A DNA stretch of 64,000 nt from Oscillospiraceae bacterium (GTDB lineage Bacteria; Bacillota; Clostridia; Oscillospirales; Acutalibacteraceae), in NCBI GenBank assembly GCA_022487055.1, contig JAKVJJ010000002.1, positions 1 to 64,000 of the forward strand. Reading direction: 5' to 3'. Of the stretch, positions 1 through 63,101 are shown piece by piece. Below the pieces are notes generated by a model. That model had not been told where the DNA came from and did no database searches. It was given only the letters and a program-made list of their open reading frames with translations. Within the stretch, counting starts at the first letter, position 1. Each line of letters opens with the position of its first letter. A program made the translations under genes and the position numbers.

Positions 1-380
<380 letters not shown>

Positions 381-456
381 TAGTTCATGGTCTCGTCCAT
401 ATCACTTCTTTGCAATTCTTAATCTTTATTCAGTTTTCAGTGCACAGAAACTTTTG

Positions 457-48104: not shown

Positions 48105-49199
48105 ATGAAATTAGGCATTGTGGGGCTGCCGAATGTTGGCAAAAGCACCCTTTTCAACGCAATTACAAATGCGGGCGCACAGAGCGCAAACTACCCATTC
48201 TGCACCATCGAGCCGAATATCGGCGTGGTGGATGTGCCGGACAAGCGTTTGGACAAACTGGCGGAAATGTATCATCCGGTAAAATATACACCGGCATCCA
48301 TTGAGTTTGTGGATATTGCAGGCTTGGTGAAAGGCGCCAGCAAGGGTGAGGGACTGGGCAACAAGTTCCTTGCCAATATCCGCGAGGTGGACGCCATTGT
48401 TCATGTGGTGCGCTGCTTCGTAAATGATGATATTGTCCATGTGGACGGCAGCATTGATCCTGCCCGCGACATCGACACCATCAATGTGGAACTGATTTTG
48501 TCAGACCTTGAGGTGCTGGAGCGCCGGATTGATAAAACTAAAAAGGCAATTAAAGCAGACAAGAAGTATCAGGAAGAGTTGGACTTTTTCCTGCGTGTGA
48601 AAGAAGTACTGGACAATGGGCAGCCCGCCCGCAGTGTGCAGTGCACAGAGGATGAGGCGGCGCTGCTGGCTTCCGTTAATCTGCTGACCAATAAGCCTAT
48701 TCTCTATGCCGCAAACATGAGTGACGACGACTTTAAGAACGGCATTAATGATAATCCGTATCTCAAAGTGGTGAAGGACATTGCGGCAAAGGAACACGCC
48801 GGTGTGCTGCCCATCTGTGCGGAAACCGAAGCGGAAATCGCCGGCATGGACGCAGAGGAAAAGGAACTGTTCCTGTCTGACATGGGTTTGGTGGAATCCG
48901 GACTGGATCGCCTGATTCAGGCTTCCTATTCCCTGCTGGGGCTGATTAGCTTCCTGACAGCGGGTGAGCCGGAAGTGCGCGCATGGACGATCAATAAGGG
49001 CACCAAGGCACCGCAGGCCGCAGGGAAAATTCACTCTGACTTTGAGCGTGGCTTTATCCGCGCGGAAGTGGTCGCTTATGATGACTTGATAGCGTGCGGC
49101 AACATGAACACAGCCAAAGAAAAGGGACTTGTCCGCAGTGAGGGCAAGGACTATGTGATGCAGGACGGCGATGTGGTGCTGTTCCGTTTCAATGTATAA
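48105..49199 (+). CDS. ychF: Redox-regulated ATPase YchF
   Basis: A 364-residue Obg-family P-loop protein that prefers ATP. It has [20 protein letters not shown] at the N-terminus, [20 protein letters not shown] and a TGS-like C-terminal domain (about 280-364, ending VVLFRFNV). YchF binds ribosomes and affects stress responses. GAAAAGAAGGA lies about ten bases before the ATG. Monocistronic. Confidence 0.97.
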
Positions 49200-49244: not shown

Positions 49245-49276
49245 ATATAAATGAACACTTAAAGGAGGTCGGCGTT

Positions 49277-49817
49277 ATGGAACTTAAGGGAAGTAAAACA
49301 GAAGCGAACCTTGCTGCTGCATTTGCAGGTGAGAGTCAGGCACGAAATTAAATATACTTACTATGCAAGCAAAGCAAAAAAGGAAGGCTATGAGCAGATT
49401 GCGGCTATTTTCGAAGAGACCGCAGACAATGAAAAAGAACATGCAAAGCTCTGGTTTAAGCTGCTGCATGACGACGACGTCCCGGACACTGTTACAAACC
49501 TGACGGATGCTGCGGCAGGGGAACACTATGAGTGGACAGAGATGTATAAAGAGTTTGCTGACACCGCCGAGTTGGAAGGGTTTTCTTCCATTGCTGCAAC
49601 GATGCGCCTCATTGCCAGTGTGGAAAAAGCACATGAGGAGCGTTACCGCAAATTGCTGGACAACTTGAAAGAGGATGCTGTCTTTAAGTGTGACGGCGAA
49701 ACCGTGTGGGTGTGCCGTAACTGCGGATACATCTATGTTGGTAAAGAAGCACCGAAAGTATGCCCTGCCTGCAAACACCCGCAGGCATACTTCGAGCGTC
49801 GTGCCAACAATTACTAA
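49277..49817 (+). pseudogene. rbr: Rubrerythrin with a one-base frameshift
   Basis: Rubrerythrin is a diiron and rubredoxin-type peroxidase protecting anaerobes from peroxide. ATG 49277, behind the strong site AAAGGAGG, reads a normal N-terminus ending GESQARN and then meets TAA at 49349-49351. One extra T in AAATTAAA (49348/49349) causes this. In the next frame the protein continues normally: [18 protein letters not shown], the helices with EEXXH-type metal ligands, and the C-terminal rubredoxin domain CRNCGYIY / CPACKHP. Without the extra base the product is about 180 residues. It could be a real mutation or a sequencing error. Confidence 0.88.
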
Positions 49818-49846
49818 TGCCTTTTTCCCCCTTAATTATAATAGAA

Positions 49847-49890
49847 GAAAAAGAGCCAGTTGCAGGAGTTCCCTGTGCTGGCTCTTTTTC
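49847..49890. terminator. Bidirectional terminator, rubrerythrin / DUF4230 gene
   Basis: A 13-bp stem GAAAAAGAGCCAG / CTGGCTCTTTTTC between convergent genes. Confidence 0.92.
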
Positions 49891-49901
49891 TGTGCTTTAT
49901 T

Positions 49902-50585
49902 TTAATTACTGCTGTCCGTATCGGATGCAGTTCCTACCGAATTGGTGGCGGAAGAAGACACTGCTGCTTCCTTGATAATGATTTTTCGTTCTCCCGCTGT
50001 GCCCTGAAGCAGCTCTGTAAGGTTGCTTTTTGCTTTCTGCGCTGCTTCTTTCAGCAGCCCCTCACTCGTTGCTTTCTGTTCCATTTTTATTTTTTCATTG
50101 GCGGCAAAATCCGTGTAGTCCTTAACACTGATGGGATTAAAAATATTCTTAGTCTCATTGTATACTTCTATGCTTTTTTCATCGATTTCATGTGAAAGGA
50201 CTTTTGCGGCGGGTAGGGTGAGCGTAATGGCATGGTCATTCACTTGCACCTGTGCACGGCTCATATCCACACCGGCCTTAATGGTGCCGTCATAAGTAAT
50301 CAGAAAGCTTTTGGTCGTGAAAGGAATCTCATAGCCATAGAAATCATTTGCTTTCGAAAATTTACCGACGTTGGTGTACATATATTTTACGGTGGAAAGC
50401 TCATTGATATGCAGGATACGTTCTTTTACGACTGTACTGGTCACCTGCGGAGAGCCGCCGCTGCGTGTAACTCTGCCGGAAAAGAAAAAAATGAGTGAAA
50501 CTGCCGCGGCTGTTGCTGCGATAGTGATGATTGTTCTTTTTAAGGCCCGGCTGATATACAGCGGGCGCTTGATTCTGGTGTTCAT
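49902..50585 (-). CDS. DUF4230 membrane-anchored protein
   Basis: A 227-residue protein with a short basic N-terminus, one membrane helix (about 17-36) and an extracytoplasmic DUF4230 domain. That domain has INELSTVKYMYTNVGKFSKA, FLITYDGTIKAGVDMS and ITLPAAKV-like segments. The tail is Ser/Thr/Ala-rich. Function unknown. AAGGGGG lies before the ATG. It has its own unit between two terminators. Confidence 0.85.
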   Translation of the reverse strand: MNTRIKRPLYISRALKRTIITIAATAAAVSLIFFFSGRVTRSGGSPQVTSTVVKERILHINELSTVKYMYTNVGKFSKANDFYGYEIPFTTKSFLITYDGTIKAGVDMSRAQVQVNDHAITLTLPAAKVLSHEIDEKSIEVYNETKNIFNPISVKDYTDFAANEKIKMEQKATSEGLLKEAAQKAKSNLTELLQGTAGERKIIIKEAAVSSSATNSVGTASDTDSSN

Positions 50586-58116: not shown

Positions 58117-59217
58117 ATGATTGAAGTCAGCCACCTCACAAAGCGTTACGGCCCGAACACGGCCTTAGTCGATGTGAGCTTCTCGGTGGAGGGCAGTGGC
58201 GTTGTCGGTTTCCTTGGGCCGAACGGCGCAGGCAAATCCACAACCATGAACATTATTACAGGCTACCTTTCTGCAACCAGCGGCACGGTGAACGTGGAGG
58301 GGCACGACATACTGGATGATGCCGATGCGGCCAAAAAGAGCATTGGCTATCTCCCGGAACTGCCCCCGCTTTATATGGACATGACAGTTGAGGAATATCT
58401 CGGCTTTATGTATGACCTGAAAAAAGTTAAGAAATCCAAGAAGGAACATATCGGGCAGATTTGCCGCAGAACAGGAATTGACCATGTCTACACCCGCCTG
58501 ATTGGCAACCTCTCCAAAGGTTACCGGCAGCGTGTTGGTCTGGCACAGGCACTGCTGGGCGACCCGCCGGTGCTCATTCTGGATGAACCGACAGTTGGTC
58601 TGGACCCCAAACAGATTATTGAGATACGCAATCTGATTAAAACGCTGGGCAAAACCCACACGGTCATTCTTTCCTCCCATATTCTGCAGGAGATCGAGGT
58701 CACCTGCGGACGTATCATTATTATTAATAACGGCAGAGTTGTGGCGGACGGCACCCAGGAAGAACTGGCGAAAACAGTGGAGCAGCCGCGCCTGCTGGTG
58801 GAGATTGAGGGGCCGAAGGAAAAAGTGGCCGGCACGCTGAAAGCACTGCCCCATGTGGGGAGCGGCGAGCTGATGGCAGAGGCAGAGCCGGGTGTCTGGG
58901 AATTTTCACTGGACGAGAAGGCGGATGCCCGCAGAGAAGTGTTCCAGATGTGCAAAGACAATGACTGGACGCTGCTGTCCATGTCCGGCAGACACAACAC
59001 GCTGGAGGACATCTTCCTGCGCCTGACCAGCGGCACTGTGGATGACCGCATGGCTTCTGACCAAGGGCATGACAAGAAAGACACGCGCAAGGTTATTGCC
59101 AGCGCGGTGGGGCTGACAAAGCCGCAGACGGACGATGAACTTTCCCGCGAGCCAAAGGCAGAAGCGGAAAAATCCCCGGAAACAGACGCACAGGCCAGTG
59201 TGAAGGAGGAAAACTGA
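58117..59217 (+). CDS. ABC transporter ATP-binding protein (GldA-like)
   Basis: A 366-residue protein with an ABC ATPase domain (1-235): Walker A GPNGAGKST (34-42), Q-loop region YLPELPPLY, signature LSKGYRQRVG and Walker B LILDEPTVGLDP. An accessory domain follows (about 236-310). The tail (about 310-366) is charged and probably disordered (DKKDTRK, AEKSPETDAQ). It energises the permease encoded next. AAGGAG precedes ATG 58117. First gene of a four-gene operon. Confidence 0.93.
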   Translation: MIEVSHLTKRYGPNTALVDVSFSVEGSGVVGFLGPNGAGKSTTMNIITGYLSATSGTVNVEGHDILDDADAAKKSIGYLPELPPLYMDMTVEEYLGFMYDLKKVKKSKKEHIGQICRRTGIDHVYTRLIGNLSKGYRQRVGLAQALLGDPPVLILDEPTVGLDPKQIIEIRNLIKTLGKTHTVILSSHILQEIEVTCGRIIIINNGRVVADGTQEELAKTVEQPRLLVEIEGPKEKVAGTLKALPHVGSGELMAEAEPGVWEFSLDEKADARREVFQMCKDNDWTLLSMSGRHNTLEDIFLRLTSGTVDDRMASDQGHDKKDTRKVIASAVGLTKPQTDDELSREPKAEAEKSPETDAQASVKEEN

Positions 59218-59218
59218 G

Positions 59219-59923
59219 ATGGGTGCAGTTGCAAAAAAAGAACTGAGACAGTATTTCCATTCACCGGTAGCCTATGTGTGCATCGGTGTGCTGATGGCGC
59301 TGTTTGGATTTTTCTATACACAGGTGTTCCTTTCCGGTAGCTCGTCTAATATTTCTTATGTTTACAGCAATATGTTCGTGTGGTGCATGCTGGTTATTCC
59401 GATTCTGACGATGCGTACCCTGAGCGAGGAGCGCCGCAGCAAAACCGACCAGGCACTGCTCACGGCACCAGTCAGCACCATCGGCATTGTGGGCGGAAAG
59501 TTTATCGGCTCTTTCTGTGTTTATGCTGTTGCCATGACACTTTCCCTGATACCATCTGTGGTGCTGACCTTTGTGGGAAAGCCAAACTGGGGCATGATTT
59601 TCGGCGACTATCTGGGTGCACTGTTCTTTGGCATGGCGATGACAGCAATCGGAATTTTCGTATCTTCTCTGACGGAAAATCCAATCGTTGCCGCCATTGG
59701 CAGCTTAGGTATTTCCATTTTCCTGATGGTGATTGATTCGATTGCCACGGCGGTCAACAACGCGGTGCTCTCCAAAATCGTGTCGTGGATTTCTTTTTCC
59801 ACCCGCTACAAGCAGTTCACTTCCGGAATTTTTGACATTCCCGCAGTGGTGTTCTTTGTATCTATCACAGCGGCAATGCTGTTTCTGACCAGCCGGCGGT
59901 TAGAGAGCCGCCGCTGGAACTGA
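59219..59923 (+). CDS. ABC-2 type permease (GldF-like)
   Basis: A 234-residue protein with six membrane segments, beginning AVAKKELRQYFHSPVAYVCI and containing LSEERRSKTDQALLTAPVS, the family loop on the cytoplasmic side. It resembles GldF/NosY-type permeases. It starts one base after the ATPase gene, so translation is coupled. The exported substrate is unknown. Confidence 0.9.
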   Translation: MGAVAKKELRQYFHSPVAYVCIGVLMALFGFFYTQVFLSGSSSNISYVYSNMFVWCMLVIPILTMRTLSEERRSKTDQALLTAPVSTIGIVGGKFIGSFCVYAVAMTLSLIPSVVLTFVGKPNWGMIFGDYLGALFFGMAMTAIGIFVSSLTENPIVAAIGSLGISIFLMVIDSIATAVNNAVLSKIVSWISFSTRYKQFTSGIFDIPAVVFFVSITAAMLFLTSRRLESRRWN

Positions 59924-59937
59924 GGAGGTGCTGCAGG

Positions 59938-61578
59938 ATGGAGGATAACAAGATGAATAAACGTCCCGACAAACCAACAGAACTGGGCAAATCCGAATAT
60001 GTGAAGGACAAAGAGAAGCAGGCGGCTGAGCAAGCGGAGCTAGAGCGCCAGCAGGCAAGAAAAACCGCCAAGAAGGAACAAAAAAACGATAAAAAGCCGC
60101 TCAAGGAACGGATACACTCTCAAAAATTCCGTCATGGCGCCGCCGCCAGAACCATTACGGTACTGGGTCTGGTGCTGCTGGTGCTGGTCAATGTGGTCTT
60201 TTCCATGCTCAGCTCCAAGTTTCCGAGTATGAATGCTGACCTGACCACCGGCGGAATGAACTCTTTGAGCGACAGTGTGAAAAAAGTAGTCGATGGGGTG
60301 AACAAGGACACCAACCTCATCATCATTGGTACGGAAGAGCAGGTGCGCAATAACCAGATCCTCTCCTCTTACAATATCAAGTACAGCCAGGTGGGCGTGA
60401 TTGCTGGAAAGATGGCGGAGCGCAACCACAAAATTACCGTATCCTATAAAGACCTCGACAAAGACCCGACTTTTGCAAGCAAATATTCCAAGGACGACTT
60501 GGTTTCCGGCGATGTGGTGGTCAAGACCAGCGCACGGGACTATGTTGTCAAATACACAGACCTGTTTAATGTGCAGCAGGACAGCCAGTCAGGTGCTCAG
60601 CAGGTTTACACACAGGTCGGTGATGCGCTGGCATCAGGCATCAGCAACGCGAACTCTGAAAACCGGCCGATTGTTGCTTTTGATACCGGCCATGAGTCAC
60701 AGCTTCCGTCAGAGCCGATTAAGAAGCTGTATTCCAGCAACAATTTTGAATCTAAGGACTTTAATCTGATGACCGATAAAGTTCCGGATAACACACAGCT
60801 TATTTTTATCGGTGCACCAAAGACCGACTATACAGACGCGGAAATTAAGAAACTTGACGAATATCTTTCTTCCACCAAAAACATGAAAGATCGCGGCCTA
60901 CTCGTTTCCACGCAGATTATTGACCCGGCTCAGATTCCCAAACTTTCCGCATTTCTGAAAGAATGGGGCATTACACTGGAGAATAAGGTTGCGCTGGAAT
61001 CTGACGCAAGCAAATATGCCATGCAGCAGCCGGCCTATCTGTTTGCGCAGGCAGGAACGGATGTCACTCTGAACAAAAATTCTTCCTATCAGACATTGCT
61101 GACACCAGTCGCACAGACGATGACCCTCTCCACTTCCGTTAGCGGTGTCACTGTGAATGCCCTGATAAAGACCAATAATTCTGCCTACACGGTCAGTCCA
61201 AAGGATAACAACACTGCTGCGGACGGCAAAGCCAAAGCGGCATCTGTCATTGCTGCTCTTAGCCGCAAGGCAGTTACTTCCGGCAGCAACCAGGCAAATG
61301 CAAGTGTGGTGGTCTGCGGAAGTTCCATGTTCTTTGCAGACGGCATTATCAATACCAATTCCTACAGCAACGGTTCTTGGAGCGCTGACCTTGCCAGGTA
61401 CATTACCGGCAATAACAGCACGGGTGTGACCATCACGCCGGTGCAGACCAACACGATGGATATTTCTCTTTCCAGTGCGTCCGGCATAATGCTTGGTTTG
61501 GGTGTGTTCACCATCATCCTGCCGCTTGTATGTTTCATTATCGGCATAGTCGTTTACAGACAGAGGAGGAAGCTCTGA
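59938..61578 (+). CDS. GldG-like ABC auxiliary protein
   Basis: A 546-residue protein. The long charged cytoplasmic N-terminus (Lys/Gln/Glu-rich, about 1-65) precedes a membrane helix (about 71-93, TVLGLVLLVLVNVVFSML), a large extracytoplasmic region and a C-terminal helix (about 517-540). The central part follows the ABC-type auxiliary (GldG) layout, with VAFDTGHESQLPSEPIKKL and IFIGAPKTDYTDAEIKKLDEY resembling the domain that sits beside GldF permeases. GAGGTG precedes the ATG. Its stop overlaps the next start (TGATG). Confidence 0.87.
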   Translation: MEDNKMNKRPDKPTELGKSEYVKDKEKQAAEQAELERQQARKTAKKEQKNDKKPLKERIHSQKFRHGAAARTITVLGLVLLVLVNVVFSMLSSKFPSMNADLTTGGMNSLSDSVKKVVDGVNKDTNLIIIGTEEQVRNNQILSSYNIKYSQVGVIAGKMAERNHKITVSYKDLDKDPTFASKYSKDDLVSGDVVVKTSARDYVVKYTDLFNVQQDSQSGAQQVYTQVGDALASGISNANSENRPIVAFDTGHESQLPSEPIKKLYSSNNFESKDFNLMTDKVPDNTQLIFIGAPKTDYTDAEIKKLDEYLSSTKNMKDRGLLVSTQIIDPAQIPKLSAFLKEWGITLENKVALESDASKYAMQQPAYLFAQAGTDVTLNKNSSYQTLLTPVAQTMTLSTSVSGVTVNALIKTNNSAYTVSPKDNNTAADGKAKAASVIAALSRKAVTSGSNQANASVVVCGSSMFFADGIINTNSYSNGSWSADLARYITGNNSTGVTITPVQTNTMDISLSSASGIMLGLGVFTIILPLVCFIIGIVVYRQRRKL

Positions 61579-63101
61579 TGAAAAATCCCAAAAGGACACT
61601 TATCATTCTGCTGGTATGCGTGGCAGGACTGACAGCCGTCCTGCTGGGCCTGCATTTTGCTCCTTCCAGCGGCGGCAGCAGTTCCTCCGGCTCCAGCCTG
61701 CAGACCACGGTGCTGTATAGTCACAAGGACAGCGACTTGGTCAGCATGACAGTTACAAATGCGGCAGGGACTTATACCATTGAACCGGACAAGGCGGCAA
61801 CCGCAAAAGCAGTGTCCGCTGCGGCGGCATCGAAAACATCGTCCGCGGCATCCGGTTCGACTTCCTCAGCGGCGGCAGCTAAGACGGTTTTTAAAGTGCG
61901 GGAACTGAACGGCATAGAAATTGACACGGCAACCGCAGGTACCGCAGCACAGGAAGGCTATAATTTATCAGCACTGAAAAATATCGGTGCGGCGGCGTCC
62001 CTGTCGGACTACGGCCTGCAGAAACCGGCGACGCAGTTTACCAGCACATTTACAGACGGCTCCAAAGTGACAGTGCTGATAGGGAACGTGACGGCGCTGG
62101 ATGCTTCTTCCCGTTACATTAAAATGAGCGGCAGCGACAATATTTACACAGCAACGGTCGCGGATGCTTTGCTGAAAGGTACCAATGCTTATGTGTCACC
62201 GCGGCTCATTAGCCTGTCTGGCACGGCAGACAACACATCTGCCTCCTCCAGCAGCACGGCCGCCGCGAATATGTTTACAAAAATTGACGTAAAGGATGCG
62301 GCTGGTACGATTGCACTTGCCCGTTCCGGTCAGGCGTGGACGGTGAACGGACGCGCGGCAGACAGCGAAAAGGTGAGCACACTGGCGGGAACGCTGACTT
62401 CTTTGAGTGGAACCAGTGTGGAAGCAGTACATCCGACGGAACAGCAGCTCAAGACTTTTGGGTTGGCATCACCGGCAGCCGAATTGACCTATACCGCCAA
62501 GAGCGGCACGGCAACACTATTGGTTGGTAGCCAGAAAACGGGCAGTGTTTCTTCCCAAAGCGAAAGTAGCAGTTCCTCAGACGTATCTTATTATGCAATG
62601 CTAAAGGGCGGCAACAAAGTCTGTTTGGTAGAGTCAACCGCTCTGCCGTGGCTGACAGAGAAAGCTTTTGACTTGCAGCAGCTTAGCCTGATTGCCAACA
62701 CGCAGACGGATATTTCCAATCTTATGTTGCAGGGAAACGGCATAAACTACAACATTTCTGTTTCCCGCACCAAGAATGAAAGTTCTTCCACAGAGGATGT
62801 GGCAGCTTATACCTATTCAACGGCAGTGAACGGAAAGAAAATTTCTAATGAGAGCAATTATGCACAGTTCTTTACAAAACTGCTGAATCTGAAAATTCTG
62901 GAAGACAGCAGTGAAACTCCCGCCGGAGAACCCGCGGCAACACTGACCATGACTGGATATGACACAAAAATCCGCCATGTGTATCAGTTCTATAAAGTCA
63001 GTGACAGAAGATATTTTGTAAAGGCGGACGGCATTGGCTGCGGCCTCATTAGCAGCACCGCTTATGACGATATGGTAACCGGCATCAAAGCTGTGAAATA
63101 A
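61578..63101 (+). CDS. DUF4340 membrane-anchored protein
   Basis: A 507-residue protein with an N-terminal membrane helix (about 7-26), Ser/Ala-rich low-complexity stretches (about 30-40 and 80-105) and repeated DUF4340-type beta units (for example NIGAAASLSDYGLQKPATQF and TFGLASPAAELTYTAKSG). DUF4340 proteins usually accompany GldG-like ABC proteins. AGAGGAGG precedes ATG 61578. The operon layout suggests an envelope complex. Confidence 0.87.
   Translation: MKNPKRTLIILLVCVAGLTAVLLGLHFAPSSGGSSSSGSSLQTTVLYSHKDSDLVSMTVTNAAGTYTIEPDKAATAKAVSAAAASKTSSAASGSTSSAAAAKTVFKVRELNGIEIDTATAGTAAQEGYNLSALKNIGAAASLSDYGLQKPATQFTSTFTDGSKVTVLIGNVTALDASSRYIKMSGSDNIYTATVADALLKGTNAYVSPRLISLSGTADNTSASSSSTAAANMFTKIDVKDAAGTIALARSGQAWTVNGRAADSEKVSTLAGTLTSLSGTSVEAVHPTEQQLKTFGLASPAAELTYTAKSGTATLLVGSQKTGSVSSQSESSSSSDVSYYAMLKGGNKVCLVESTALPWLTEKAFDLQQLSLIANTQTDISNLMLQGNGINYNISVSRTKNESSSTEDVAAYTYSTAVNGKKISNESNYAQFFTKLLNLKILEDSSETPAGEPAATLTMTGYDTKIRHVYQFYKVSDRRYFVKADGIGCGLISSTAYDDMVTGIKAVK

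Follow-up and report, generated by a model that had tools for sequence, protein, structure and literature searches.

In a draft genome of an Oscillospiraceae bacterium, what appears to be an ordinary, conserved rubrerythrin gene has its reading frame broken by a single base inserted into the consensus sequence. Three things are observed directly: the inserted base, the lack of it in the relatives examined, and the conservation kept on either side. We infer that the added base is a local error of consensus or assembly, and that the gene in the organism is intact (probability about 0.55). The phenomenon is ordinary, and its meaning is mainly cautionary: a conserved oxidative-stress gene seems lost through a single surplus base in a draft. 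Were the mutation real, the sequence would show an anaerobe caught at the first step towards losing canonical rubrerythrin, with its reverse rubrerythrin kept.

The source genome (G000) is a draft of 1.74 Mb in 48 contigs; it is 74.81% complete, leaving about a quarter of the genome unseen. Its genus may be Caproicibacterium. The window (the whole stretch of 64,000 nucleotides analysed) sits on contig C2, which is 119,740 bases long. The genome collection used for comparison holds one genome per species. For the gene alignment, G000 was set beside 10 congeners and G035 (Caproiciproducens faecalis, family Acutalibacteraceae).

One rubrerythrin in two frames

An earlier note on this DNA had read a 24-codon rubrerythrin start closed by a stop at 49349, and held that one extra T breaks an otherwise intact protein of about 180 residues. 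Both readings are borne out (Table 1): start and stop codon lie as described; the +1 frame stays open through 49817; both domains are matched; and the counterpart in congener G007 is an intact protein of 179 aa. The first fragment agrees with the start of this protein at all 24 residues, and the second fragment is 90% identical to it over query residues 25-179.

Table 1. Features of the rubrerythrin locus, with positions in the window
Feature	Position	Strand	Basis
ychF (YchF-type GTPase), upstream neighbour	48105-49199	+	Pfam PF06071 and PF01926
Shine-Dalgarno / ribosome-binding site AAAGGAGG, 8 nt before the ATG	49261-49268	+	Read from sequence
Rubrerythrin, first fragment: ATG 49277-49279, 24 sense codons, TAA 49349-49351	49277-49351	+	Read from sequence
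Codon 19 (Glu), before the break	49331-49333	+	phmmer alignment to PDB 1b71: position 20 of Desulfovibrio vulgaris rubrerythrin
Added T (either of two possible)	49348-49349	+	Alignment, column test, family pattern tests
Rubrerythrin, second fragment: remaining 155 codons and stop 49815-49817, +1 frame	49350-49817	+	Open frame, Pfam, congener match
Intrinsic terminator hairpin with U tract	49846-49891	+	Folding: -30.4 kcal/mol, z -6.12
Gene for a DUF4230 protein, convergent with rubrerythrin	49902-50585	-	Domain annotation

The second fragment carries the matched parts of the domain pair of a canonical rubrerythrin, diiron followed by a C-terminal rubredoxin-like domain: Pfam Rubrerythrin PF02915 at residues 25-127 (78.8 bits, cut-off 22.8) and the rubredoxin-like PF21349 at residues 144-173 (55 bits, cut-off 26.5). 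The same open frame scores 221.5 on NCBIfam NF045767 (cut-off 200). The congener copies resemble the canonical protein (NF045767; D. vulgaris Rbr, PDB 1b71/1ryt) in domain order, length and conserved residues; within the PDB, the congener protein matches 9fj2 best. The G000 sequence differs in that its frame is broken after codon 24.

As written, the sequence would yield a 24-residue peptide. Glu20 of the D. vulgaris protein is a di-iron ligand. No single ORF at the locus holds all of the di-iron ligands: Glu19 precedes the TAA, and the rest of the diiron domain lies in the second fragment. Neither fragment alone could therefore build the di-iron site, because this residue comes before the break and the remaining ligands come after it.

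The earlier note had also judged the surroundings functional, and this view held in part. The ribosome-binding site stood: AAAGGAGG is common in the alignment to G007, G002, G004, G008, G006 and G035. So did the terminator, by folding (0 of 200 shuffles were as stable), its hairpin being absent from the output of the consensus scan. The promoter side did not: ahead of the gene the consensus scan gave nothing resembling a sigma-70 site, and its sole match lies within the gene, at chance level (1 found vs 1.2 expected). The order ychF-rubrerythrin recurs in G007, in which ORF r2755 (58995-60266) matches ychF at 88% and rubrerythrin starts at 60345.

An internal start was considered and rejected. 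TTG at 49311 opens the second frame; it has no strong Shine-Dalgarno at the usual spacing, and its use would replace the conserved first helix with unrelated residues.

Relatives, constraint, and the rest of the assembly

Comparison with sister genomes, which the earlier note had proposed, places the added T in G000 only and in none of the 10 congeners. Just two alignment columns are unique to G000 against the congeners and G035: one lies before the gene, and the other is the added T itself. Among 398 family genomes, a degenerate motif containing one extra base has a single carrier, again G000; this pattern detects an insertion at that one place only. The uninterrupted motif occurs in 241 of the 398, a figure that is not a count of intact genes, as the patterns miss copies with other residues at the break. 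A search with the G007 protein gave matches at E up to 1e-20 in 58 of 60 genomes, G000 among them; the other two genomes are 69% and 72% complete. The listed matches begin at residue 1-6, with the exception of G000, which begins at 23.

Of the 104 positions past the break that do not vary in the 11 other sequences, G000 retains 102. Its changes there fall 11/4/41 at the three codon positions, a distribution like that of the intact controls G004 (8/5/31) and G009 (7/6/41). Its dN/dS values, computable for 2 of its 11 pairs, are 0.043 and 0.048, inside the range of 0.015-0.066 that intact copies show in the seven pairs allowing the calculation; most pairs have a saturated dS. Neither relaxed constraint nor any further lesion of the kind expected in a pseudogene is seen, and the downstream 155 codons contain no other stop. 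The gene was fully constrained up to the very recent past, or remains so today. The event, if real, must be very young, because there is no second lesion and no relaxation.

Frame changes elsewhere in the assembly were sought by an indel scan in which 21 contigs of G000, totalling 519,740 bases, were compared with 1.72 Mb of G007; the scan is blind to shifts near gene ends. Over 183 conserved genes and 156,921 aligned bases it flagged two: rubrerythrin, and one on contig C14. The latter was rejected, since it reflects an over-extended ORF in the G007 reference; the gene proper is NMT1-like. On contig C2, with only the best-scoring non-overlapping ORFs retained, no gene but rubrerythrin changes frame in the comparisons with G007 (78 genes), G002 (83) and G004 (52); congener-versus-congener controls of this filtered scan gave 0, 0, 0, 0, 0 and 2. 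Unfiltered, the C2 comparisons gave 6, 9 and 1 candidates, rubrerythrin in each, and the six congener-versus-congener controls gave 8, 1, 4, 0, 1 and 3. Ten of the 11 other unfiltered regions were discarded, as conserved genes of the opposite strand with better scores overlie more than half of their length. A same-strand 218-aa gene of G007 covers part of the eleventh (81849-82911), where the longer ORF of G002 was provisionally read as two genes run together. An indel-ridden assembly was thus rejected: rubrerythrin is the only frame change left standing among the 183 genes. This rarity argues against gross error, and leaves room for a single one.

The G000-G007 scan also returned 19 alignments with in-frame stops, including rubrerythrin and the C14 case. 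In 12 of these the first stop lies at most 17 residues from the alignment start or at most 23 from its end. The other five are C2 1-237, which is 23S rRNA gene, and C10 18074-18949, C10 19038-19268, C1 196-459 and C7 17894-18151. The longest of the last four, C10 18074-18949, is 64% identical to a 296-aa G007 ORF and has two in-frame stops, the first at alignment residue 105. It is possibly a further broken gene, or else the reference ORF is spurious.

The start of contig C2 falls within a 23S rRNA gene (window 1-381 and 941-1057 hold this gene and then 5S rRNA), presumably as often in short-read assemblies; the contig end is probably a break at a collapsed rRNA operon. ARAGORN listed no tRNA genes in the window, and phage records gave no match. 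Viral contigs gave one relative, at 52%, and relatives were found among genome contigs (the best 80 of 595).

Remaining peroxide defence

The earlier note had spoken of the loss of a key peroxide-defence enzyme. This overstates the case: G000 retains an intact reverse rubrerythrin of 181 aa, with PF21349 first and then PF02915, beside a PerR-like gene of the FUR family. The two genes adjoin on contig C19 (L002 1060-2075), and the best NCBIfam match of the FUR-family neighbour is the PerR model, below the model cut-off. Together they are likely a remaining peroxide-response unit of G000. The loss of rubrerythrin, if real, is partial.

A second canonical rubrerythrin was not found in G000, the reverse rubrerythrin being the only other match in a genome of which about a quarter is unseen. 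Desulfoferrodoxin is present in 8 of the 11 genus genomes and missing in G000, G006 and G004, the last of these 99% complete. An AhpC-TSA match over the cut-off occurs in 5 of the 11, G000 not among them. The lack of either protein is not peculiar to G000.

Error, loss, or recoding

Several features speak for a consensus error: the draft state of the genome (48 contigs, 74.81% complete, with contig C2 opening in a 23S rRNA gene); an insertion found in no examined relative; and the absence of decay. The assembly has few indels, and the break site is not a long homopolymer (its longest runs are AAA and TT), which both count against such an error. A GeneTack survey of 1106 genomes expected BLASTp-validated singleton frame transitions to be sequencing errors and not genuine indels (PMC3711429). 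G000 resembles these cases in its single-genome change, in the one-frame copies of the relatives examined, and in similarity on both sides, with no notable difference. Among the literature matches listed for rubrerythrin and frameshift, neither word stands in a title or abstract.

A real mutation of very recent date would be indistinguishable from a consensus error, and both fit the finding that each side of the break is as conserved as in intact relatives. The chance falls somewhat short of even that the frameshift is real, the strain (or the dominant strain of the sample) having lost canonical rubrerythrin and relying on reverse rubrerythrin and other enzymes. None of the other 182 conserved genes has a frame change that stood up, which favours such a loss, and C10 18074-18949, with its stops relative to the G007 ORF, suggests that other broken genes may exist. 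The reverse rubrerythrin beside its FUR-family, PerR-like neighbour is a possible back-up. The reverse rubrerythrins of C. difficile have H2O2 and O2 reductase activity in vitro, yet their deletion did not raise H2O2 sensitivity (PMC7482061), so that the value of this back-up is uncertain. The near-universal match to rubrerythrin (58 of 60 genomes, the two misses being 69% and 72% complete) tells further against the loss.

Of the three readings that the earlier note offered, sequence error and very recent loss both fit the data; the third, a ribosomal frameshift, is not supported, the interruption being confined to G000 among the genomes examined and without the elements of the prfB motif. Phase variation, in which slippage at a short repeat toggles the gene on and off within the population, is highly improbable. 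The one-base difference does lie in a T run (T to TT), but that run is only two bases long, and the off state appears in no relative examined. Known contingency repeats are far longer than two bases.

It is scarcely credible that programmed +1 frameshifting at AAT-TAA joins the two fragments in the manner of prfB. The rubrerythrin site shares with prfB an early in-frame stop (at codon 25, against codon 26 for the E. coli gene; PMC12421855), the +1 direction, and conservation on both sides of the break. In the prfB motif, CTTT is preceded at a distance of three nucleotides by an SD-like stretch close to AGGGGG, and TGA followed by C comes after it (PMC12421855). At the rubrerythrin site the slippery CTTT is absent before the stop, where 49346-49351 reads AAT TAA; CAGGCA stands at 49337-49342 in place of a spaced AGGGGG; and the stop is TAA followed by A. 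By our reasoning, the P-site codon AAT is also unfavourable, as tRNA re-pairing on ATT would mismatch in the middle. Nor is the interruption conserved: none of the 10 congeners has it, and G000 alone shows it among 398 family genomes. Just as little credence is due to a recoding site of recent origin, at which one base would be skipped at AAT-TAA and rubrerythrin output tied to termination efficiency or stress. A local error in the consensus remains the reading that we prefer.

A prfB-like pattern gave scattered matches in 10 of the 11 genus genomes; with the prfB gene itself not identified among them, these do not amount to a positive control. The match in the window, at 61564, was attributed to the ribosome-binding site of the downstream member of an overlapping gene pair. 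The ORFs at 59938-61578 and 61530-63101, both on the + strand, overlap as listed, with AGGAGG just before the probable later start of the second; the arrangement resembles that of ordinary translational coupling. The 15-base motif at this overlapping pair recurs in G002, G007 and G009.
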